Part shown: in pieces, positions 5,747 through 50,045 of the stretch
Position numbering within the stretch: the first letter of the stretch is position 1
How the letters are laid out: every line of letters begins with the position of its first letter
From: Cloacibacterium normanense
GTDB taxonomy: Bacteria > Bacteroidota > Bacteroidia > Flavobacteriales > Weeksellaceae
DNA: 64,000 nucleotides
Reading direction: 5' to 3'
Assembly (NCBI RefSeq): GCF_002943105.1
Contig: NZ_PTPZ01000001.1
Location: 536,153-600,152, forward strand
The notes under the pieces: generated by a model
Seen by the model: the letters and a program-made list of their open reading frames with translations, nothing else
Database searches by the model: none
Told to the model about the DNA's origin: nothing
Made by a program: the position numbers and the translations under genes

Positions 5747-5791
5747 ATGAAAAATTTAAACTTAATCCATCATCATCATCATCTCATCTAA
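5747..5791 (+). CDS. hisL: his operon leader peptide
   Basis: This 14-residue ORF (MKNLNLIHHHHHLI) contains five consecutive CAT His codons at 5768-5782, which can serve as a ribosome-stalling sensor of charged tRNA-His. Its stop codon (5789-5791) overlaps the first strand of the antiterminator. It lies between the his promoter and hisG, followed by a rho-independent hairpin. It is too short for ordinary gene finders. The symbol follows the naming in enterobacteria; the peptide is not a sequence homologue. Confidence 0.88.
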   Translation: MKNLNLIHHHHHLI

Positions 5792-5870
5792 AGGCGAGTT
5801 GATAATGTATCATGTATTATAGTTAATAAAATATTTACAATCCGCCTTGAGTTTTTCAAGCGGATTTTTC
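5788..5870 (+). promoter_or_regulatory. his operon transcription attenuator
   Basis: Segment AAGGCG (5791-5796; extendable with C5788 and T5789) can pair with CGCCTT (5843-5848), which is also part of the 5' arm of the terminator at 5839-5866. The two structures exclude each other. A ribosome stalled on the early His codons leaves 5791-5796 free, so the antiterminator can form and hisG is transcribed. A ribosome that reaches the stop codon covers that segment and lets the terminator fold. The base pairing is seen in the sequence; the mechanism is inferred from known his and trp attenuators. Confidence 0.82.
5839..5870 (+). terminator. his attenuator terminator hairpin
   Basis: AATCCG-C-CTTGA pairs with TCAAG-CGGATT (5856-5866) with one bulged C and a 5-nt loop (GTTTT), followed by a T-rich run. 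It sits 49 nt before the hisG start, so it acts as a conditional terminator and not as a gene end. Confidence 0.85.
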
Positions 5871-13733: not shown

Positions 13734-14465
13734 TTATTTAATAGATTTGATGAAAGTTTCCGCTTTTTCTTTCCAATCTTTATTTTCTAAGAGAATTTTC
13801 ACAAAAGCAGTTCCTATAATTCCGCCTTGTGCTTTTTCTGTAACTTGTTCAAAATCAGTTTTGTTTTTAATTCCGAAACCAATCATTACAGGATTTTTCA
13901 GGTTGATGGAAGCCAATTTGTTTAGGTATTCATCATTTTTCACTTCTTTATTTTCGTTTCCTGTGGTAGATGAACTAGAAACAGCGTATAAAAACCCTGA
14001 ACTCAAAGAATCTAAATATTTGATGCGCTCTTCCGAAGTTTCTGGAGTCACCAAAAAGGTAAAATTCAATCCATATTTCTCTAAAATCGGTTGGTAATTC
14101 TTTTCAAATTCAATCGGAGGTAAATCTGGAATAATCAGTCCAGAAACTCCAGAATTGGCACATTCTTCGCAGAATTTTTCGAATCCAAAACTTAAAACAG
14201 GGTTAATGTATCCCATTAAAATCACAGGAATTTTGATTTCATCTTTCACCGATTTCAGTTGAGAAAAAAGTTGAGCGATGGTCATTCCGTTAGACAAAGC
14301 CAATTCGTGTGCACCTTGAATAACTGGACCATCTGCAACAGGATCAGAATAAGGCATCCCGATTTCCATCATATCTGCGCCAGAATTCTGGATGGTTTTC
14401 ATAATTTCTGCAGTATCTTCCAAAGTAGGAATTCCCGCAGTAAAATATATATTTAATTTTTTCAT
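13734..14465 (-). CDS. trpA: tryptophan synthase alpha chain
   Basis: It splits indole-3-glycerol phosphate and passes indole to TrpB. This TIM barrel of 243 aa keeps the catalytic pair Glu34 (MEIGMPYSDP) and Asp45 (PVADGPVIQ). It is about 25 residues shorter than E. coli TrpA, mostly at the N-terminus, as is usual in Bacteroidota as far as I know. It is the last gene of the operon, separated from trpB by a phzF-like gene, which is unusual because trpB and trpA are normally adjacent. Confidence 0.95.
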   Translation of the reverse strand: MKKLNIYFTAGIPTLEDTAEIMKTIQNSGADMMEIGMPYSDPVADGPVIQGAHELALSNGMTIAQLFSQLKSVKDEIKIPVILMGYINPVLSFGFEKFCEECANSGVSGLIIPDLPPIEFEKNYQPILEKYGLNFTFLVTPETSEERIKYLDSLSSGFLYAVSSSSTTGNENKEVKNDEYLNKLASINLKNPVMIGFGIKNKTDFEQVTEKAQGGIIGTAFVKILLENKDWKEKAETFIKSIK

Positions 14466-14477
14466 TGTAATATCTTT

Positions 14478-15272
14478 TTATTTGATGAATATTTCGCCTT
14501 TCAAATAGGTTTTGCACTTTCCACTGATGAGAACTCTATCATCTTTGAGTTCACATTCTAAAACGCCACCACGTTTTGAAATTTGTTTTGCGGTAAGTTT
14601 AGTTTTACCCAATTTTTCTGCCCAAAAAGGAGTCAATGTTGTGTGAGCAGAACCTGTAACAGGATCTTCGTTTACACCGCAATTTGGACCAAAAAATCTA
14701 GATACAAAATCAAAATTTTCTGAAATAGAACTTGCAATTATTCCTCTTGCATTAATTTTTGCAATTTCAGAAATGTTGGGTTCTATATTTTGAATTTGAT
14801 GTTCGTTTTCAAAAATCAATAAATAATCTGTTTTTCCTTGATATGCTTTAATAGGTTGATACGCAAAACATTTCTCGAAAATAGTTAAATCTTCCACTTT
14901 TTGTAATATGTCTACTGGAAAATCTAAAGTTAAAAAATCTCCGTTTTTAGTTACAGTTAGCGTTCCGCTATTTCTAGAAAAGAAGTTGATTTTTTCCCCT
15001 GAAAATCCTTCAAAATTCATCAATGTGTAAGCGGATGCCAAAGTTGCGTGACCGCATAAATCTACTTCAACTTCTGGCGTAAACCAACGGATTTCAAAGC
15101 CATTTTCTACAGGAACAGTGAAAGCAGTTTCTGCCAAATTATTTTCGGCGGCTATTTTTTGCATTATATCTGCATTTAACCAATTGTCTAGCGGACAAAC
15201 AGCTGCAGGATTTCCCGAAAATAAAGCGTCTGCAAATGCGTCTATTTGATATATTTTTTGGCTCATTATCAA
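14478..15272 (-). CDS. PhzF family isomerase/epimerase-like protein
   Basis: Two diaminopimelate-epimerase-like halves form the PhzF fold: N-terminal YQIDAFADALFSGNPAAV, the catalytic Glu48 in NNLAETAF, DLCGHATLAS in the middle and NEDPVTGSAHT in the second half. The family includes phenazine PhzF, which acts on a chorismate-derived compound, but most members have no known substrate. The gene lies between trpB and trpA, 12 nt before trpA, so it is transcribed with the trp operon; a role in aromatic metabolism is only a guess. A start at 15266 (MSQKIYQ) is also possible. Confidence 0.88.
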   Translation of the reverse strand: MIMSQKIYQIDAFADALFSGNPAAVCPLDNWLNADIMQKIAAENNLAETAFTVPVENGFEIRWFTPEVEVDLCGHATLASAYTLMNFEGFSGEKINFFSRNSGTLTVTKNGDFLTLDFPVDILQKVEDLTIFEKCFAYQPIKAYQGKTDYLLIFENEHQIQNIEPNISEIAKINARGIIASSISENFDFVSRFFGPNCGVNEDPVTGSAHTTLTPFWAEKLGKTKLTAKQISKRGGVLECELKDDRVLISGKCKTYLKGEIFIK

Positions 15273-15309
15273 TGCTTGAGTTTAATTTTTATACAAAAAT
15301 TTCTAATTT

Positions 15310-15410
15310 TTTCTGAGTTGCGACCCGACTTGAGCGGAAATCCTTTTTTTCAATGGCAAAAGCGTTGGCAAAAAAAGATTGGGAGCGGAAGGCGGAATTT
15401 GGCGCTCTAA
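15310..15410. repeat. dispersed intergenic repeat between trpB and the phzF-like gene
   Basis: The stretch reads cgacttgagcggaaatcc, a T run, aaaaaaagattgggagcgg and aaggcggaatttggcgctc. I recall this arrangement (GCGGAAATCCTTTTT ... AAAAAGATTGGAGCGG) as a common Chryseobacterium intergenic repeat. A related element is at 49490-49620. It interrupts the trp operon without an ORF. Confidence 0.6.
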
Positions 15411-15415
15411 AAATA

Positions 15416-16600
15416 TTATTTATCAATCATTTTCAGGTAGGTTTCCATGTCTTTATCGCCACGTCCGCTTAAACAAATCACCACCACATCGTCTTTTTGG
15501 AAGTTTTTCTTTTTCAAAACGTGCAATGCGTGAGAGCTTTCCAAAGCAGGAATGATGCCTTCTAATCTAGTGAGTTCAAAAGCAGATTCTAGCGCTTCGT
15601 CATCATTAATGCTGAAAAATTCTGCACGATTATTTTTAAATAGATTCGCGTGAAATGGTCCAATTCCTGGATAATCTAATCCCGCAGAAATAGAGTGAGG
15701 TTCGATTACTTGTCCGTCTTCAGTTTGCATCACAATGCTTTTGCTACCGTGCAAAACGCCTGTAGTTCCCAAGAAAGTTGTGGCGGCAGATTTTCCTGAA
15801 TTTACTCCAAAACCACCAGCTTCAGCTGCTATAATTTTCACAGAAAGTTCATCTACAAAATGGTAGAAAGTTCCTGCAGCATTGCTTCCGCCACCAACAC
15901 AAGCGATGACGTAATCAGGGTTTTCTCTGCCGATTTTCTCTTTCAATTGCCATTTAATTTCCTCAGAAATCACACTCTGGAATCTCGCCACCAAATCAGG
16001 AAAAGGATGCGGACCAACTACACTTCCGATGATGTAATGCGTAGTAGTAGCATTATTAATCCAGTCTCTTAAAGCTTCATTTACTGCATCTTTTAATGTT
16101 TTAGAACCCGAAGTGGCAGGGACAACTTTTGCACCAAGCATTTTCATTCTAGCAACATTAGGAGCTTGTCTCGCAATGTCAACTTCGCCCATATAAACGA
16201 TGCATTCCAGATTCATCAAAGCGCAAGCTGTAGCAGTTGCAACGCCGTGTTGTCCAGCTCCAGTTTCGGCAATAATTCTCTTTTTTCCTAGTTTTTTGGC
16301 AAGAAGAACTTGTCCGAGAGCGTTATTGATTTTATGGGCACCAGTATGGTTTAAATCTTCACGTTTTAGGTAAACGTTTGTGCCATATTTTTCGCTTAAA
16401 TTTTTCGCAAAATAAAGTGGAGTAGCTCTTCCTACATAATCTTTCAATAAATCGTTGAGTTCTTTTTTAAACTCTTCAGATTCTATAATTTCTATATAAT
16501 TTTGTTGAAGTTCTTCCACGTTTGGATAGAGCATTTCTGGAACAAATGCCCCTCCAAATTCTCCGTAATATCCGTTTTCGTCGGGATTTCTATATGTCAT
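15416..16600 (-). CDS. trpB: tryptophan synthase beta chain
   Basis: A PLP enzyme joining indole and serine to make tryptophan. The 394-aa sequence has the PLP Lys90 in [14 protein letters not shown] and the phosphate-binding GGGSNAAGT loop, and ends with LSGRGDKDM, the family's usual C-terminal motif. Its first four bases overlap the trpF stop (ATGA type), suggesting translational coupling. It is a TrpB1 type, expected to pair with TrpA although trpA lies one gene further on. Confidence 0.97.
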
Positions 16601-17235
16601 CTTAATAATGATTTTAATGTTTTTATTTTTTCTAGGTTTTTAATTCCGGGTTCTGTCTCAAATTTTGAGTTGATATCTAGCGCCAATGGTTGTTGGTTGA
16701 TGGTTGATAGTTGATGGATGTTTTCTAAAGAAATTCCACCACTCAAAAAATAAGGTATTGGAATTTCTATTTCGTTGAGAATTTGCCAATCAAAGGTTTT
16801 TCCTGTTCCGCCAAAAGCTTTAGAATCAGTGTCGAAAAGGAAATAATCAACCAACGAATTGAAAATTGAAAATTGAAAATTGAAAGTTTCTCCAACTCTG
16901 AAAACTTTGATGAGTTTTACTTCTTTCTTTACATTTTTTCTTAAATCTTTGATGAAATTTTCGTCTTCATCACCATGTAATTGGATGAAATTCAAATTTG
17001 ATTTCTCTGAAATTTCTGTAATTTTTTCAACCGTTTCATTCACAAAAACGCCTACTTTTCCTTGATGATTGATTGCTGAAATCTCTTGTAAACTCAAATG
17101 ATTTAATACAAATCTCGGTGATTTTTCGTAGAAAATAAAGCCCAAAAAATTGGTGTTCAAAGAAATTAATTCTTGAATTTGAGAGAGTTGTGTTAAACCA
17201 CAAACTTTTAATTTCAAATTTTCTGTTGGCTTCAT
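16597..17235 (-). CDS. trpF: phosphoribosylanthranilate isomerase with repeat-derived segments
   Basis: A TIM barrel of about 212 aa with the start taken at [16 protein letters not shown], which lies 1 nt after the trpC stop; a longer reading to 17262 would overlap trpC by 26 nt. The catalytic Cys is in KVCGLTQ and the catalytic Asp in ALDINSKFE. Two stretches look like intergenic repeat read as protein: [10 protein letters not shown] (about 16857-16888) and [10 protein letters not shown] (about 16686-16720). Both may be surface loop insertions. The frame stays open and the catalytic motifs are intact, so the enzyme is probably functional. Its last 4 nt overlap trpB. Confidence 0.92.
16686..16720. 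repeat. ggttgttggttgatgg repeat inside trpF
   Basis: The words ggttgttggttga, tggttgatagttgatgg are of the same kind as the ggttgttggttg run that encodes the trpE N-terminus (21101-21129). Here they encode [10 protein letters not shown] within TrpF. Confidence 0.55.
16857..16888. repeat. tandem ttgaaaattgaaaattgaa repeat inside trpF
   Basis: Four near-identical units of 9-10 bp (attgaaaattg) encode [10 protein letters not shown]. The complementary words fill the hisB-hisH gap (10304-10340). Confidence 0.6.
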
Positions 17236-17236
17236 T

Positions 17237-18010
17237 TTAAATAAGTTTAGAAAATTCTTCAAACGTTTTTCCGGGATTTTCGGTTTTCATGAAATATTCT
17301 CCCATCAAGAAAGCATCAAATCCTTTTTCTTTCAAAAATTTAAAATCTTCCACATTGTAAATTCCACTTTCTGCAACAGATAAAGTTTCTTTTGGAAGTA
17401 AGTTTTTCAGATTAACAGAATGTTGTAAATCTACCTTAAAATCTTTCAAATTTCGGTTGTTAATGCCTACCAAATCAATTTCAGAATTGAATTGTTTTAG
17501 TTCTTCTTCGGTGTGAATTTCTAATAAAACTTCTAAATTGAGTTCGTGGGCTAAAGCTGTAAATTCTTGAACTTGATTAGGAGAAAGACACGCTGCAATC
17601 AATAAAACAACATCTGCACCGATAGATTTTGCTTCGTAAAATTGGTATTCATCTACCATAAAATCTTTCCTTAAAATCGGAATATTTACAGAATTTCTCA
17701 CGCTCAAAATATCCTCAAAACTACCTCCGAAGAAATCTTTATCTGTTAAAATCGAAATACCACTTGCGCCGAATTCTTCGTATTTTGTTACCACTTCTAA
17801 AGGCGAAGCTTGATTATTGATAATTCCTTTTGAAGGCGATTGTCTTTTAAATTCAGCAATAATTCCGTTTCTGGCTTTTACCGATTCTTTCAAAGAAAAA
17901 GTTTCTCTTCCAAAATATTCAGAATTTTTCAGTTCTTCAACAGAAATTTTACTTTTTGAGAAAGCAATTTCTTCCTTTTTTCGAGCTACTATTTTATCTA
18001 AAATATTCAT
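17237..18010 (-). CDS. trpC: indole-3-glycerol phosphate synthase
   Basis: A TIM barrel that closes the indole ring. It has the N-terminal helical extension (MNILDKIVARKKEEIAFSK), then IAEFKRQSPSKG with the substrate-binding Lys, LRKDFMVDEYQ, LGINNRNLKDF (as VGINNRNL) and VAESGIYN, all in family order. At 257 aa it is a single-function enzyme, not fused to TrpF as in E. coli. The 64-nt gap from trpD is filled by an inverted repeat. Confidence 0.96.
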   Translation of the reverse strand: MNILDKIVARKKEEIAFSKSKISVEELKNSEYFGRETFSLKESVKARNGIIAEFKRQSPSKGIINNQASPLEVVTKYEEFGASGISILTDKDFFGGSFEDILSVRNSVNIPILRKDFMVDEYQFYEAKSIGADVVLLIAACLSPNQVQEFTALAHELNLEVLLEIHTEEELKQFNSEIDLVGINNRNLKDFKVDLQHSVNLKNLLPKETLSVAESGIYNVEDFKFLKEKGFDAFLMGEYFMKTENPGKTFEEFSKLI

Positions 18011-18020
18011 GTTTTTTTTT

Positions 18021-18073
18021 CTCTCGCTGATTTCACAGATTAAACAAATTTTTTATCTACACAATCTGCGAGA
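18021..18073. repeat. tctcgctgatt...aatctgcgaga inverted repeat in the trpD-trpC gap
   Basis: TCTCGCTGATT at the left and AATCTGCGAGA at the right form an imperfect inverted repeat with cacagattaaacaaatt between them. A relative (ctcgctgattga ... tcaatcagcgag) is at 63377-63434. Such agattaagcagatt words are a repeat type I recall from other flavobacteria. Confidence 0.55.
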
Positions 18074-18074
18074 C

Positions 18075-19064
18075 TTATTTTATAATTAATTTATTCAAGC
18101 ATTCTAGCGCTTTTCCACTTTCTAAACTCTCTTTTGCAGCAGCTAAACTTGCTTCATAATTTTCGTATTTTCCTGTGTTTTGAAGCGCTTTTGCAGCATT
18201 AGAAAGAACTACGGCGTTTTGTTCATGAGTTCCTTTTCCTTCTAAAATATTTCTGAAAATTTTGGCCGCTTCTTCTTTGGTATTTCCACCGAAAATGGTT
18301 TCTGCTTCTATGTTTTTGAATCCTAATTCTTCAGCAGAGAAAATTTCTTCTCCATTTTTGTTGAAAATTTTACTATCTCCTGTCAAAGAAATCTCGTCGT
18401 AACCGTCTAAAGCGTGAACTAACATAAAATCTTCGTTGTTTTTTTGCAAAATATATTGGTATAATCTGGCAATTTCTAGATTATAAACACCAATCATTGA
18501 AAATTTTGGTTTTGCAGGATTTACCAATGGTCCTAAAAGATTAAAAAATGTTCTCAATCCTAAACCTTTTCTCAAAGGAGCCACCGTTTTTAATGCAGGG
18601 TGAAAAAGCGGAGCGTGAAGAAAACAGATGTTGGCTTTTTCTAAATCTTTCTTTAAATCTTCCTGATTATCTTTGAACTGATAGCCCAATTCTTCTAAAA
18701 CATTAGACGAACCGGAAATCGCAGAAACACCGTAATTGCCGTGTTTCGCTACTTTTTGTCCGGTTCCTGCAACGATAAAACTTGCCAAAGTAGAAATGTT
18801 GAAGGTGTTTTTTCCATCGCCACCAGTTCCTACAATATCTACCAAATCGTGCGTTCCTAAATCTACTTTCACCGCTAAATCTAGCAAAGCTTCACGGAAA
18901 CCTTGCATTTCTTCTAGTGTAATGCTTCGCATCATAAAAACGGTGATAAACGCCGAAACTTCCGTTTCATTGAATTTATTTTGTGCAATTTCAATCATAA
19001 TAGCCTTTGCTTCGGCTTTGGTCAATGTTTGATGATTGAAAAGGTATTGTAATATTTGTTTCAT
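18075..19064 (-). CDS. trpD: anthranilate phosphoribosyltransferase
   Basis: It transfers phosphoribosyl from PRPP to anthranilate. At 329 aa it is a stand-alone TrpD. The PRPP-binding loop GTGGDGKNTFNIST (near residues 81-94), KHGNYGVSAISGSSNVLEELG and the RKGLGLRTFFNLLGPLVNPA stretch are all present. A 16-nt gap follows trpG. An inverted repeat follows its stop. Confidence 0.96.
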   Translation of the reverse strand: MKQILQYLFNHQTLTKAEAKAIMIEIAQNKFNETEVSAFITVFMMRSITLEEMQGFREALLDLAVKVDLGTHDLVDIVGTGGDGKNTFNISTLASFIVAGTGQKVAKHGNYGVSAISGSSNVLEELGYQFKDNQEDLKKDLEKANICFLHAPLFHPALKTVAPLRKGLGLRTFFNLLGPLVNPAKPKFSMIGVYNLEIARLYQYILQKNNEDFMLVHALDGYDEISLTGDSKIFNKNGEEIFSAEELGFKNIEAETIFGGNTKEEAAKIFRNILEGKGTHEQNAVVLSNAAKALQNTGKYENYEASLAAAKESLESGKALECLNKLIIK

Positions 19065-19071
19065 AATTTGT

Positions 19072-19146
19072 AGTCCGAAGTCAGATGTCCGAAGTCGGAA
19101 GCTTTTTTGGGTTATATTTATTCTTCTGACTTCCGTCTTCCGACTT
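19072..19146. repeat. gaagtcggaag-type repeat overlapping the trpG end
   Basis: Two forward words (tccgaagtcagatg, tccgaagtcggaagc) and, 40 bp on, their complement (cttctgacttccgtcttccgac) make an inverted arrangement. The trpG stop codon is inside it. The same words occur after nrdJ at 47711-47745. Confidence 0.6.
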
Positions 19147-19704
19147 TAAGAAATTCTCTAAAATCTGTTTTCCTTTTGGTGTTAAAATACTTTCAGGGTG
19201 ATATTGAACCGCGTGAACATCGTATTCCTTGTGTTTTAAGCTCATAATCATTCCAGAATTATCAACAGAAGTAATTTCTAATTCCTCTGGGAAATCATCA
19301 GGATTTACCGCCCAAGAATGATAACGTCCCACTTCTAAAACTTCGGGTAAATTTTCTAGAATTTTGTGAGGTTTCACTTGTTTAGCTTCGGTGGCAACTC
19401 CGTGATAAATTTCTGAAAGATTAATGAGACTTCCGCCAAAAGCTTCTGCAATCGCTTGTTGACCAAGACAAACTCCGAAAATGGATTTCGTAGGAGCATA
19501 TTTTTTTATCACTTCTAACAAAATTCCTGCTTCTTCGGGAATTCCAGGGCCTGGAGAAAGGATGATTTTATCATATTTATTGATGTCTTCCAAAGGAATT
19601 TCGTCATTTCTGAAGACATCTACTTTTTCGCCTAAAATTTGTTCTACAATTTGAACGAGATTGTAGGTAAAACTATCGTAATTATCGAAGACCAGTACTT
19701 TCAT
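19081..19704 (-). CDS. trpG: anthranilate synthase, glutamine amidotransferase component
   Basis: It supplies ammonia to TrpE. The class I amidotransferase triad is complete: Cys79 in GVCLGQQ, His169 and Glu171 in QYHPESIL. At 207 aa it is longer than the usual 185-195; the extra C-terminal residues (after FLKSEDG) are encoded by the intergenic repeat at 19081-19146 and are probably a late, non-essential addition. Its start overlaps the trpE stop by 4 nt. Confidence 0.95.
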   Translation of the reverse strand: MKVLVFDNYDSFTYNLVQIVEQILGEKVDVFRNDEIPLEDINKYDKIILSPGPGIPEEAGILLEVIKKYAPTKSIFGVCLGQQAIAEAFGGSLINLSEIYHGVATEAKQVKPHKILENLPEVLEVGRYHSWAVNPDDFPEELEITSVDNSGMIMSLKHKEYDVHAVQYHPESILTPKGKQILENFLKSEDGSQKNKYNPKKLPTSDI

Positions 19705-21134
19705 AATTTTTCTGCTTTTTTAACTGCCATTTTCAAGGCATTTAGTTTGTTATTTACTTCTTGTAACTCATTTTCTGCGGAAGATTTGGCTACAATTCCA
19801 GCACCAGCTTGATAGAAAAGCGTATTATTTTTGCTTAAAAATGTTCTAATCATAATGGCTTGGTTGCAGCTTCCATCAAAGCCTACAAAGCCAATACAAC
19901 CGCCATAATAACCACGGGAAGTTTTTTCGTAAGCATCGATGAGTTCAAGAGCTTTATATTTTGGAGCGCCACTTAATGTTCCTTGCGGAAAAGTAGTCGC
20001 AATCATTTTATAAGGATTGGTTTTTTCGTCTAATTCTGCGGTGACTTCTGAAACCATGTGTATGACGTGAGAAAACAATTGAATTTCTTTCAGTTTAGAA
20101 ACCGTTACGTTCTTTCCTAATTTGCTTAAATCGTTTCTGGCTAAATCTACCAACATAGTATGTTCGGCGTTTTCTTTCGGGTCTTTTTTCAGGGTTTCTA
20201 CCGATTGTAAGTCTTTTTTAGTATCACCAGTTCTGCGGAAAGTTCCTGCAATTGGGTGAATTACGGCTTTGTGATTTTGAATAATCAACTGACTTTCTGG
20301 ACTTGAGCCCATTAATTTGTAATCTCCATAATCAAAGAAAAATAGGTAAGGAGAAGGATTGATGTTTCGTAAAGCTCTGTAAACATTGAATTCATCACCT
20401 TTGAATTTTTGCTCAAATCTTCTGCTTAAAACCAACTGGAAAACATTTCCACGGAAACAATGCTTTTTGGCTAATTCTACCAAATCTCTGTATTCTTCAT
20501 CAGTTAAATTTGAAGTTTCTTCGTCTATTTTTTCAAAAGGGTAGAGTGCAACATCTTTGTTTTGAATCATATTTTCAATTTCTGAAATTTCAGATTTCAA
20601 ACCCTTTATTTTATTTTCGATAAGAAACATTTCATCATTAAAATGATTAATAGCAATCACATATTGATAAAATCTGTAACGTAAAATGGGGATTTCTACT
20701 TCCTTGCTCTGAGGTTTGAATTGGATGGTTTCAAAAAACTGAACGGCATCAAAACTGGTATAACCAAATAAACCTTGAGCCATTTTTTCAACTGGATTTT
20801 TCACCTTTTCGCAGTCAAAACTTTTAGAAAAATTTTCTAAATATTCTGTGATGTTGAAATTTTCTGGAATTTGATGTTTTTCTGGAGCGGTTAATGGAAA
20901 TTTTACTTCCATTTCCTGTAGATTTTTAATTTCTATTCCTGCAATTGCATTGATAGCGATGTAAGAAAAACTATTGTTATTTACATTGTGGTCGGCACTT
21001 TCCAGTAGAATGGTATCTCTGAATTTGTCTCTGAGTTTTAGATAAATTCCCATCGCTGTATGAAGGTCTCCCATCAATGATTTGGAGGTAGTTTTTATTT
21101 TAGTTGTTGGTTGTTGGTTGTTGGTTGTCAGCAT
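19701..21134 (-). CDS. trpE: anthranilate synthase component I
   Basis: It converts chorismate to anthranilate and is the first enzyme of the pathway. At 477 aa it has the LLES motif (43-46), which binds feedback-inhibiting tryptophan in this family, and the chorismate-binding core (LVDLARNDL, FPQGTLSGAPK, YYGGCIGF). The first 12 or so residues (TTNNQQPTT) are encoded by a ggttgttggttg-type repeat, so the ancestral start may have been nearer KIKTTSKSL. The leader ORF and attenuator lie just upstream. The stop overlaps trpG by 4 nt. Confidence 0.95.
   Translation of the reverse strand: MLTTNNQQPTTKIKTTSKSLMGDLHTAMGIYLKLRDKFRDTILLESADHNVNNNSFSYIAINAIAGIEIKNLQEMEVKFPLTAPEKHQIPENFNITEYLENFSKSFDCEKVKNPVEKMAQGLFGYTSFDAVQFFETIQFKPQSKEVEIPILRYRFYQYVIAINHFNDEMFLIENKIKGLKSEISEIENMIQNKDVALYPFEKIDEETSNLTDEEYRDLVELAKKHCFRGNVFQLVLSRRFEQKFKGDEFNVYRALRNINPSPYLFFFDYGDYKLMGSSPESQLIIQNHKAVIHPIAGTFRRTGDTKKDLQSVETLKKDPKENAEHTMLVDLARNDLSKLGKNVTVSKLKEIQLFSHVIHMVSEVTAELDEKTNPYKMIATTFPQGTLSGAPKYKALELIDAYEKTSRGYYGGCIGFVGFDGSCNQAIMIRTFLSKNNTLFYQAGAGIVAKSSAENELQEVNNKLNALKMAVKKAEKL
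21101..21129. repeat. ggttgtt tandem repeat at the trpE start
   Basis: Four copies of ggttgtt in tandem (7-bp period) encode the low-complexity start of TrpE (TTNNQQPTT). Confidence 0.6.
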
Positions 21135-21150
21135 AATTAAAGATTTAAAT

Positions 21151-21187
21151 AAAAAAAAGACTTCAACGGTATAATCGCTGAAGTCTT
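21151..21187 (-). terminator. trp attenuator terminator hairpin
   Basis: On the transcribed strand AAGACTTCA-G-CG pairs with CG-T-TGAAGTCTT, 12 bp with one G-U pair and a 7-nt loop, followed by eight T. It lies between the leader ORF and trpE and is the conditional terminator. Confidence 0.88.
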
Positions 21188-21251
21188 CTCATGAAATGAA
21201 TTTTATTGTAGTATAGATTCAAAGCATAGCAGTATTACCTTAGACTCAGCG
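21176..21251 (-). promoter_or_regulatory. trp operon antiterminator
   Basis: The segment 21251-21242, inside the end of the leader ORF (CGCTGAGTCT on the RNA), can pair with 21186-21176 (AGACTTCAGCG), the 5' arm of the terminator: 10 pairs and one bulged base. A ribosome stalled at the Trp codons leaves the first segment mostly free; one that reaches the leader stop codon covers it. This is the alternative-pairing logic of a trp attenuator with no separate pause hairpin. The mechanism is inferred. Confidence 0.82.
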
Positions 21252-21297
21252 TAGAGTATAAGTGCCACCACCAATTTTTGTTGCTATTCAATTTCAT
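21235..21297 (-). CDS. trpL: trp operon leader peptide
   Basis: A 20-residue ORF whose residues 9-11 are three consecutive TGG Trp codons (NKNWWWHLY). It starts a few bases after a consensus promoter and ends 48 nt before the terminator hairpin. It is positioned to sense charged tRNA-Trp. The symbol is used by analogy only; the sequence is not like the E. coli leader apart from the Trp codons. Confidence 0.9.
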   Translation of the reverse strand: MKLNSNKNWWWHLYSTLSLR

Positions 21298-21302
21298 TGG
21301 GG

Positions 21303-21310
21303 CAAATTTA
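21303..21310 (-). promoter_or_regulatory. trp operon promoter, -7 box
   Basis: On the - strand TAAATTTG fits TAnnTTTG exactly. It is only 5 nt from the leader ATG, so the transcript would begin at or very close to the start codon and the leader ORF may be almost leaderless. No clear TTG is seen at -33. Confidence 0.6.
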
Positions 21311-21385: not shown

Positions 21386-21730
21386 TTATTTTACTTGATC
21401 TACAACAGCTTTGAAAGCTTCTGGATGATTCATTGCAAGGTCTGCAAGAACTTTTCTGTTTAGCTCGATGTTGTTCTTTTTAAGAGCTCCCATAAATTGA
21501 GAGTAAGACATTCCGTGTTCTCTAGTTCCAGCGTTAATTCTGGTAATCCAAAGTCCTCTGAAGCTTCTTTTTTTCTCTTTTCTACCGCGGTAAGCATATT
21601 GCATTGCTTTTTCTACGGCATTTTTAGCAACAGTCCAAACATTTTTTCTTCTACCGAAAAAACCTTTAGCCTGCTTTAAAACTTTTTTTCTGCGCGCTCT
21701 AGACGCTACAGCGTTTACTGATCTTGGCAT
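21386..21730 (-). CDS. rplT: 50S ribosomal protein L20
   Basis: A 23S rRNA-binding, assembly-initiating protein of 114 aa. The basic N-terminal half ([20 protein letters not shown], then GFFGRRKN) and the globular C-terminal half ([19 protein letters not shown]) are typical. In many bacteria L20 also represses its own operon; the 129-nt gap upstream is large enough for a leader but I cannot identify the known motif. Confidence 0.98.
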
Positions 21731-49489: not shown

Positions 49490-49620
49490 GTTACTCACTT
49501 CATTTTTTTTGCTTTCGGAGTAGTGCTTTACACTGCAATCTTTTATTTTTTTTGTCAGTTTGAGCGGAGTCGAAAACCAAAAAAATAAAAGGATTTCCGT
49601 TGCAATCGCTTACGCGGATT
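49490..49620. repeat. dispersed intergenic repeat
   Basis: Read on the - strand it gives aacggaaatcctttta, a T run, ggttttcgactccgctc, aaaaaaaataaaagattgcag and gcactactccgaaagc. It has the same layout as the repeat at 15310-15410 (aaatcc + T run ... A run + gattg). It follows the end of the gene at 49620-50045. Confidence 0.5.
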
Positions 49621-50045
49621 TAACTATTTTCAATTGCGTCAAAATAAAGTTTAACATTTTCCCAATCTGAATCTCTTTTAGAGTGATATCTCAAAAATCT
49701 ATCTTCTCTATCCTCAAGTTCATAAGGCATTTCTACAAATTCACAAGCTATCTTTGATGCATCCTCTTCTTTAGCATAAAATATAATTTCATAAATATTT
49801 TTATGTAGAGTAGTACCAATAATTTTAATATCAACCTTTTTATATATCTTTTGCAAAATTTCAACCATAAATTTTTGTAAAATTTCTTCATCATTTTCTG
49901 TGTCAAAGAATCTTTGTAGCTCAACATACCAACACCAACTAAAGTCTTTGTCAATATTATTAATAAGACTTTTATTTATCATAAGATAAAATGGCTCATC
50001 GTTAATATTAAAAATTCTTCTGACAAAAGTTATTTCTTCTTCCAT
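49620..50045 (-). CDS. hypothetical protein (141 aa)
   Basis: An acidic soluble protein that I do not recognise, with SLINNIDKDFSWCWYVELQRFFDTENDEE in the N-terminal half. It has no signal peptide or membrane helix. It lies alone between convergent and divergent neighbours, with a repeat after its stop. A reading frame of this length in such AT-rich DNA, with ordinary codons, is probably real. Confidence 0.6.
   Translation of the reverse strand: MEEEITFVRRIFNINDEPFYLMINKSLINNIDKDFSWCWYVELQRFFDTENDEEILQKFMVEILQKIYKKVDIKIIGTTLHKNIYEIIFYAKEEDASKIACEFVEMPYELEDREDRFLRYHSKRDSDWENVKLYFDAIENS

Follow-up and report, generated by a model that had tools for sequence, protein, structure and literature searches.

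The window analysed here, a 64,000-nucleotide stretch of Cloacibacterium normanense DNA, carries a tryptophan operon on its - strand. Pfam matches give the gene order trpE-G-D-C-F-B-phzF-like-A, and the TrpE it encodes is 93% identical to that of C. rupense. The gene lying between trpB and trpA (14478-15272, - strand) is PhzC/PhzF-like (PF02567). Two Flavo-1 RNAs (RF01705) are also present in the window, one at 15317-15403 (+), across from the space separating trpB and the phzF-like gene, and the other at 49515-49623 (-). The features of the region upstream of the operon, and the operon itself, are listed below in the direction of transcription.

21730-21386, - strand: gene for a 114-aa ribosomal-protein-like product upstream of the leader, rplT by inspection (ORF list)
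21359-21331, - strand: terminator-like hairpin belonging to this upstream gene (consensus scan)
21303-21310, - strand: -7 promoter element TAAATTTG, of the TAHHTTTG type (sequence reading)
21302-21298, - strand: spacer CCCCA, 5 nt from the box to the start codon (sequence reading)
21297-21235, - strand: trp leader ORF from ATG to TAA, encoding MKLNSNKNWWWHLYSTLSLR, 20 codons plus stop (sequence reading)
21273-21265, - strand: tandem Trp codons TGG TGG TGG, residues 9-11 (sequence reading)
21262-21239, - strand: hairpin 1:2 within the ORF, CTTA.ACTC-loop-GAGT.TAAG (folds and covariation)
21251-21242, - strand: 5' strand of the antiterminator, CGCTGAGTCT, at the end of the ORF (pairing and covariation)
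21186-21176, - strand: 3' strand of the antiterminator, AGACTTCAGCG, also part of the terminator 5' arm (pairing and covariation)
21190-21154, - strand: intrinsic terminator GAGAAGACTTCAGCG-ATTATAC-CGTTGAAGTCTTTTT, 15 bp with a 7-nt loop (scan, fold and covariation)
to 21151, - strand: T run after the terminator hairpin (sequence reading)
19701-21134, - strand: trpE, anthranilate synthase component I, the first regulated gene (PF00425, PF04715)
13734-19704, - strand: trpG, trpD, trpC, trpF, trpB, the phzF-like gene and trpA (names inferred from Pfam matches and order)

A first-pass annotation made from the sequence had described an ORF of 20 codons, beginning 5 nt past the box, with three TGG codons at residues 9-11, and on re-reading these coordinates proved exact. 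The terminator lies 44 bases beyond the ORF. It had been recognised correctly, although its limits were put at 21187-21157 when the hairpin spans 21190-21154. The annotation had also paired the end of the ORF (21251-21242) with the 5' arm of the terminator; indeed, CGCTGAGTCT is complementary to AGACTTCAGCG with one bulged base. A consensus scan of 1.1 kb returned 3 terminator-like sites against 0.6 expected. Moreover, the stretch 21287-21150 folds at -38.1 kcal/mol, compared with -22.7 (sd 3.2) for shuffled sequences (z -4.8), and 0/200 shuffles were as stable. A model with two states, antiterminator and terminator only, was extended once a hairpin within the ORF appeared in the folds. With the downstream gene identified as trpE by Pfam, the proposal of a trp attenuator in front of trpE on the - strand is supported; what the annotation had overlooked is the ORF-internal hairpin, a probable leaderless start and the Rfam family RF01692.

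The Trp-run leader and its pairings among relatives

The first-pass annotation had named two features to look for among relatives, the Trp run and compensatory changes in the paired segments, and both are present. We compared named loci, taken as the best 80 of 529 trpE, from the Weeksellaceae (Chryseobacterium, Kaistella, Epilithonimonas, Cloacibacterium and others). All 80 have an ORF with a WW or WWW run upstream of trpE, a degree of conservation that excludes a chance ORF. The start codon is ATG in 79/80 and GTG in one, L018 from Chryseobacterium aahli, where it lies 4 nt past the box and is a possible leaderless GTG start. At the level of the order, TrpE was found in 149/296 genomes, from which 80 upstream regions were hand-picked to cover families and genera, and 68 of these contain a leader with a WW or WWW run. 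The 12 regions without one comprise all 8 from a family (f16) of 0.3-0.6 Mb genomes, which we take to be probably the Blattabacteriaceae, together with G003, G035, G062 and G044. In G003 a shorter WW ORF, MNFWWNTY, had been removed by the ORF filter. At the level of the class, TrpE was found in 75/247 genomes, and of 40 regions taken, 29 by hand count have a WW or WWW ORF within ~400 nt of trpE. Two further class-level genomes, L168 and L189, have WCW and WRW leaders before trpE, in which the Trp codons are not adjacent. Across the class the N-terminal codons of the leader vary while the in-frame Trp run persists. Pooling the named loci, the order-level leaders and the window gave a set of 149 leaders, of which 97 belong to the window's family and 52 to other families; 8/149 have WW without WWW.

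Covariation was measured in an alignment (A1) of 69 distinct Weeksellaceae leaders, obtained from the 97 by removing near-duplicates and rows with N. For hairpin 1:2, 96.9% of cells are paired and both-side changes number 20 against 3.4 in shuffles. The corresponding values are 95.3% and 17 against 3.0 for the antiterminator, and 96.1% and 51 against 19.1 for the terminator. For all three structures, 0/500 shuffles matched the observed paired percentage or the number of both-side-changed cells. The count of pairs changed on both sides is weaker, being reached by 42/500 shuffles for hairpin 1:2 and by 92/500 for the antiterminator, and further pair types in the antiterminator are not significant (265/500 shuffles as high). 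When partners were slid by 1-3 columns, paired cells were 13-50% for hairpin 1:2, 34-50% for the antiterminator and 22-54% for the terminator. As an example, the window pair CGCTGAGTCT/AGACTTCAGCG is CGTCGGGTCT/AGACTTTGACG in Chryseobacterium. The antiterminator and the terminator are mutually exclusive, with compensatory changes within the Weeksellaceae, and hairpin 1:2, for which the covariation comes from the Weeksellaceae, hides the antiterminator strand.

In the Weeksellaceae the end of the ORF pairs with the lower 5' arm of the terminator. Outside the family the ORF end, often including the stop codon (CGTGA), mostly pairs with the terminator loop (TCACG) and upper arm. Matching changes occur there too, such as GGATTCAG with CTGAATCC, and GAGAAGC with GCTTCTC. 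We also exchanged antiterminator partners between leaders and shuffled single sequences, two controls that leave shared ancestry in place. Outside the family (41 distinct pairs), own partners gave a mean of -10.27 kcal/mol against -8.49 for swapped partners, and within the family (61 distinct pairs) -12.50 against -11.21, with 0/5000 permutations as good in either case. In single-sequence shuffles of the antiterminator, at most 5/100 were as good in 79/97 family leaders and in 9/47 outside. The terminator finder returned no terminator in 5/52 leaders outside the family.

Spacing between the promoter box and the leader AUG

Removal of duplicates from the 97 Weeksellaceae leaders left 92 distinct ones. 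The TAHHTTTG box lies 4 nt from the start codon in 70/92 and 5 nt in 14/92, counts that may be inflated since the choice of start codon favoured an ATG just past the box. Independently of that preference, 46 of these 84 short-spacing leaders have no alternative in-frame start before the Trp run, which places the AUG within the transcript, and near its 5' end if the box is the promoter. Of the remaining leaders, 4/92 have the box at 52-54 nt and 4/92 have none within 60 nt; in three of the latter a box is found at 67-91 nt, and in the fourth the stretch searched contains none. A spacing study in Flavobacterium johnsoniae takes 241/434 candidates as probable promoters (PMC6847099). By the spacing published there, the first transcribed base of the window leader would be the A of the AUG or the base before it. 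The trp leader mRNA of the window is thus probably leaderless. For the Weeksellaceae as a whole, we think it likely, from the sequence comparisons, that the trp attenuator is built on a leaderless start, with the -7 box locked 4-5 nt from the AUG and ribosomes joining the emerging 5' end.

A genuine attenuator on a leadered mRNA, with transcription starting further upstream than the box implies, is the most serious alternative, and we consider it rather unlikely. The Flavobacterium mRNAs described so far are mostly leadered: 87% of predicted F. johnsoniae transcripts have >10 nt (PMC6847099) and 5.5% of F. psychrophilum mRNAs are leaderless (PMC9723704). A similarly low figure, ~3.7% of mRNAs with a 5' UTR of <10 nt, is given for Bacteroides thetaiotaomicron. 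Moreover, among the 52 leaders of other families the spacing is 5-9 nt in 17 and 16-20 nt in 25, with no box within 60 nt in 10. In the most-sampled Flavobacteriaceae genus (g11) it is 16-20 nt in 18/20 leaders, with no box within 60 nt in the other 2, and the four leaders at 52-54 nt mentioned above, which are of the Epilithonimonas type, likewise fit a leadered transcript. Against this stand the strongly conserved position of the box in 84/92 distinct leaders and the 46 of these 84 in which the Trp run can be entered from no other in-frame start.

The 52-54 nt stretch of the Epilithonimonas-type leaders, L058, L088 (G120), L091 (G134) and L094 (G149), contains (G/A)AAACGACAG-N4-ATCTGTC, a small hairpin, and would make a leaderless leader leadered. 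It is not a multi-copy repeat, as one copy was found in each of three genomes and none in G110 and G000.

The window also has a his leader, MKNLNLIHHHHHLI followed by a stop, with five His codons (5747-5791, +), before hisG (5919) and with a terminator-like hairpin at ~5839-5869. With 19 nt between box and ATG it would be leadered, unlike the probably leaderless trp leader, so short spacing is no rule for attenuators in the window. Nor is short spacing unique to trp: of the 53 ORFs in the window that encode 150 aa or more, 15 are preceded by a box within 80 nt, at a distance of 4-6 nt in 3 cases.

Relationship to known trp leaders

The closest described family is Bacteroid-trp (RF01692), the "Bacteroidete tryptophan peptide leader RNA", which stems from the 2010 comparative study of Weinberg et al. 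(PMC2864571). RF01692 matches the window at the right place and on the right strand, and its alignment puts the start codon and TGGTGG in register. However, the score of 27 bits is too low for membership at the Rfam cut-off (gathering score) of 49, and in the window's own genome the model gives no match at E up to 0.001. Low-threshold Rfam scans of the window returned lower-scoring unrelated families besides. One, SpF43_sRNA, had a better E-value in one scan (0.018), but it scored 22.3 of the 70 bits needed and is a Streptococcus family. The RF01692 cut-off was passed in 7/20 regions scanned, including L085 from the window's family at 53.9 bits. By place and ORF, the window element is orthologous to RF01692, to which it is linked via intermediate homologues.

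We also built a model, R1, from 69 Weeksellaceae leaders. Both models were run on 60 genomes of the family, and hits were counted whether or not trpE lies downstream. RF01692 gave hits at E 0.001 in 11 genomes and passed its cut-off in 7. For R1 the number at E 0.001 is 26, but several of the 60 genomes had contributed leaders to its training and these hits are not independent. Together the two models match 33/60 genomes at E up to 0.001. They coincide in place in G057, G144, G566 and G548, and R1 misses seven genomes found by RF01692. These data suggest that the Rfam model under-reports trp leaders in the Weeksellaceae. In the window itself R1 also returned weaker matches, of which the best reaches 30.7 bits and falls at the terminator, on the opposite strand. 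Across 82 sources (all 64 order regions outside the family and 18 of the 40 class regions) there were 37 weak matches to R1, scoring 22-32 bits, and six of these are on the strand opposite the leader. Therefore, likeness in sequence plus structure does not carry across families, and beyond the family the argument for relationship rests on position, ORF and pairing. Both Bacteroid-trp and the window element are trp peptide-leader RNAs of Bacteroidetes, and they differ in that the window scores below the family's cut-off. Overall, the element is related to a known family but has diverged from it, and its function is an ordinary one.

The E. coli trp attenuator has tandem Trp codons and three mutually exclusive hairpins, and uses the position of the ribosome as its sensor. 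The window leader has the codons and the hairpins in common with it and would rely on the same sensor, but its hairpin 1:2 is contained, with both arms, in the ORF. Trp_leader (RF00513), the corresponding Rfam family, is absent among the matches of the window in the Rfam scans, and its matches to 6/20 related loci, at 24-34 bits, fall short of the cut-off of 41. Leaderless trp leaders are described in Sinorhizobium meliloti, where the mRNA starts at the AUG of the leader peptide before trpE (PMC7298713), and in Streptomyces lividans, as trpL1 MFAHSTRNWWWTAHPAAH (PMC8079986). What they would share with the window is a Trp leader peptide encoded ahead of trpE whose AUG forms the 5' end of the mRNA. 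They belong to unrelated phyla with unrelated promoters, and the leaderless start is reported there from transcript data, whereas for the window we infer it. In F. psychrophilum, strong clues of leader-peptide attenuation before amino-acid operons are reported (PMC9723704). In the parts of the literature on attenuation and leaderless mRNAs available to us, supplementary tables aside, we found no leaderless trp leader reported for Bacteroidota.

Ribosome position and the proposed attenuation of the trp operon

To our knowledge, mRNAs of this phylum lack Shine-Dalgarno sites. Transcription of the window leader would start at or about one base from the leader AUG, and ribosomes would load on the 5' AUG without such a site. 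If charged tRNA-Trp runs short, the ribosome would stall on the three Trp codons and cover the 5' half of the ORF hairpin. The strand 21251-21242 would then be free to pair with 21186-21176, allowing readthrough into trpE. With ample Trp, the ribosome would instead move on to the stop codon and mask 21251-21242, and the terminator would form. It would also form if no ribosome were present, with 21251-21242 hidden in the ORF hairpin.

To model this scheme, we folded the RNA as far as the terminator loop while keeping the ribosome footprint unpaired. In the window, the probability of the antiterminator in the model is 0.93 with a ribosome on any Trp codon, 0.01 without a ribosome and 0.00 with a ribosome at the stop codon. 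Outside the family, the probability with a stalled ribosome exceeds that of the free RNA by >0.2 in 41/47 leaders and that with a ribosome at the stop codon by >0.2 in 46/47, the latter result being partly forced as the strand overlaps the stop codon. In the Weeksellaceae these differences are found in 42/97 and 13/97 leaders, and the median probabilities are 0.70 free, 0.89 stalled and 0.89 at stop. We attribute the poor static fit in most of this family to the ORF, which extends at least 18 nt beyond the antiterminator strand in 84/97 leaders. The Chryseobacterium-type leaders L008 and L013 are of this kind: the ORF extends 18-19 nt beyond the antiterminator strand, so that this strand would stay uncovered by a ribosome that has reached the stop codon, and the at-stop probability is 0.89 in both, compared with 0.00 in the window. 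One static model of ribosome position thus fails for the Chryseobacterium-type leaders and was not kept for all relatives. In such longer-ORF leaders, termination under Trp-replete conditions may instead come about through the ORF hairpin after release of the ribosome, or through the relative timing of translation and transcription.

We are confident that the window element, which joins an ORF with an in-frame Trp run to a terminator and three alternative, covarying pairings at a conserved place before trpE, is a ribosome-mediated transcription attenuator of the trp operon; translation of the leader and a response to Trp would follow from this arrangement. It is very improbable that the terminator instead senses a Trp-binding protein, a riboswitch ligand or uncharged tRNA directly, with the short ORF incidental. 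A terminator alone would be compatible with such control, and the known peptide-leader family does miss its cut-off in the window (27/49 bits). However, the Trp run stays in frame across the class as the N-terminal codons change, the window has no T-box or riboswitch at Rfam thresholds, and a ribosome that had reached the stop codon would sit over its antiterminator strand. Equally improbable is a hairpin that simply ends transcription of the upstream gene, or one that terminates partially and constitutively, without switching, for although that gene (114-aa product, 21386-21730) lies on the same strand, it has its own terminator-like hairpin (21359-21331), the promoter box lies downstream of that hairpin, and the antiterminator and the ORF hairpin covary.

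In summary, an attenuator of this kind is already known as Bacteroid-trp, and the analysis supports the presence of this textbook mode of control in a lineage that has been little studied. What is less ordinary is the fixed distance from promoter to AUG, which offers a natural test case for leaderless initiation in bacteria whose mRNAs are without Shine-Dalgarno sites. If the leaderless start is true, leaderless trp leaders would exist in Bacteroidota, Alphaproteobacteria and Actinobacteria, plausibly with separate origins. Moreover, the terminated product would then be a leaderless mini-mRNA of ~147 nt, which might act in trans like rnTrpL.
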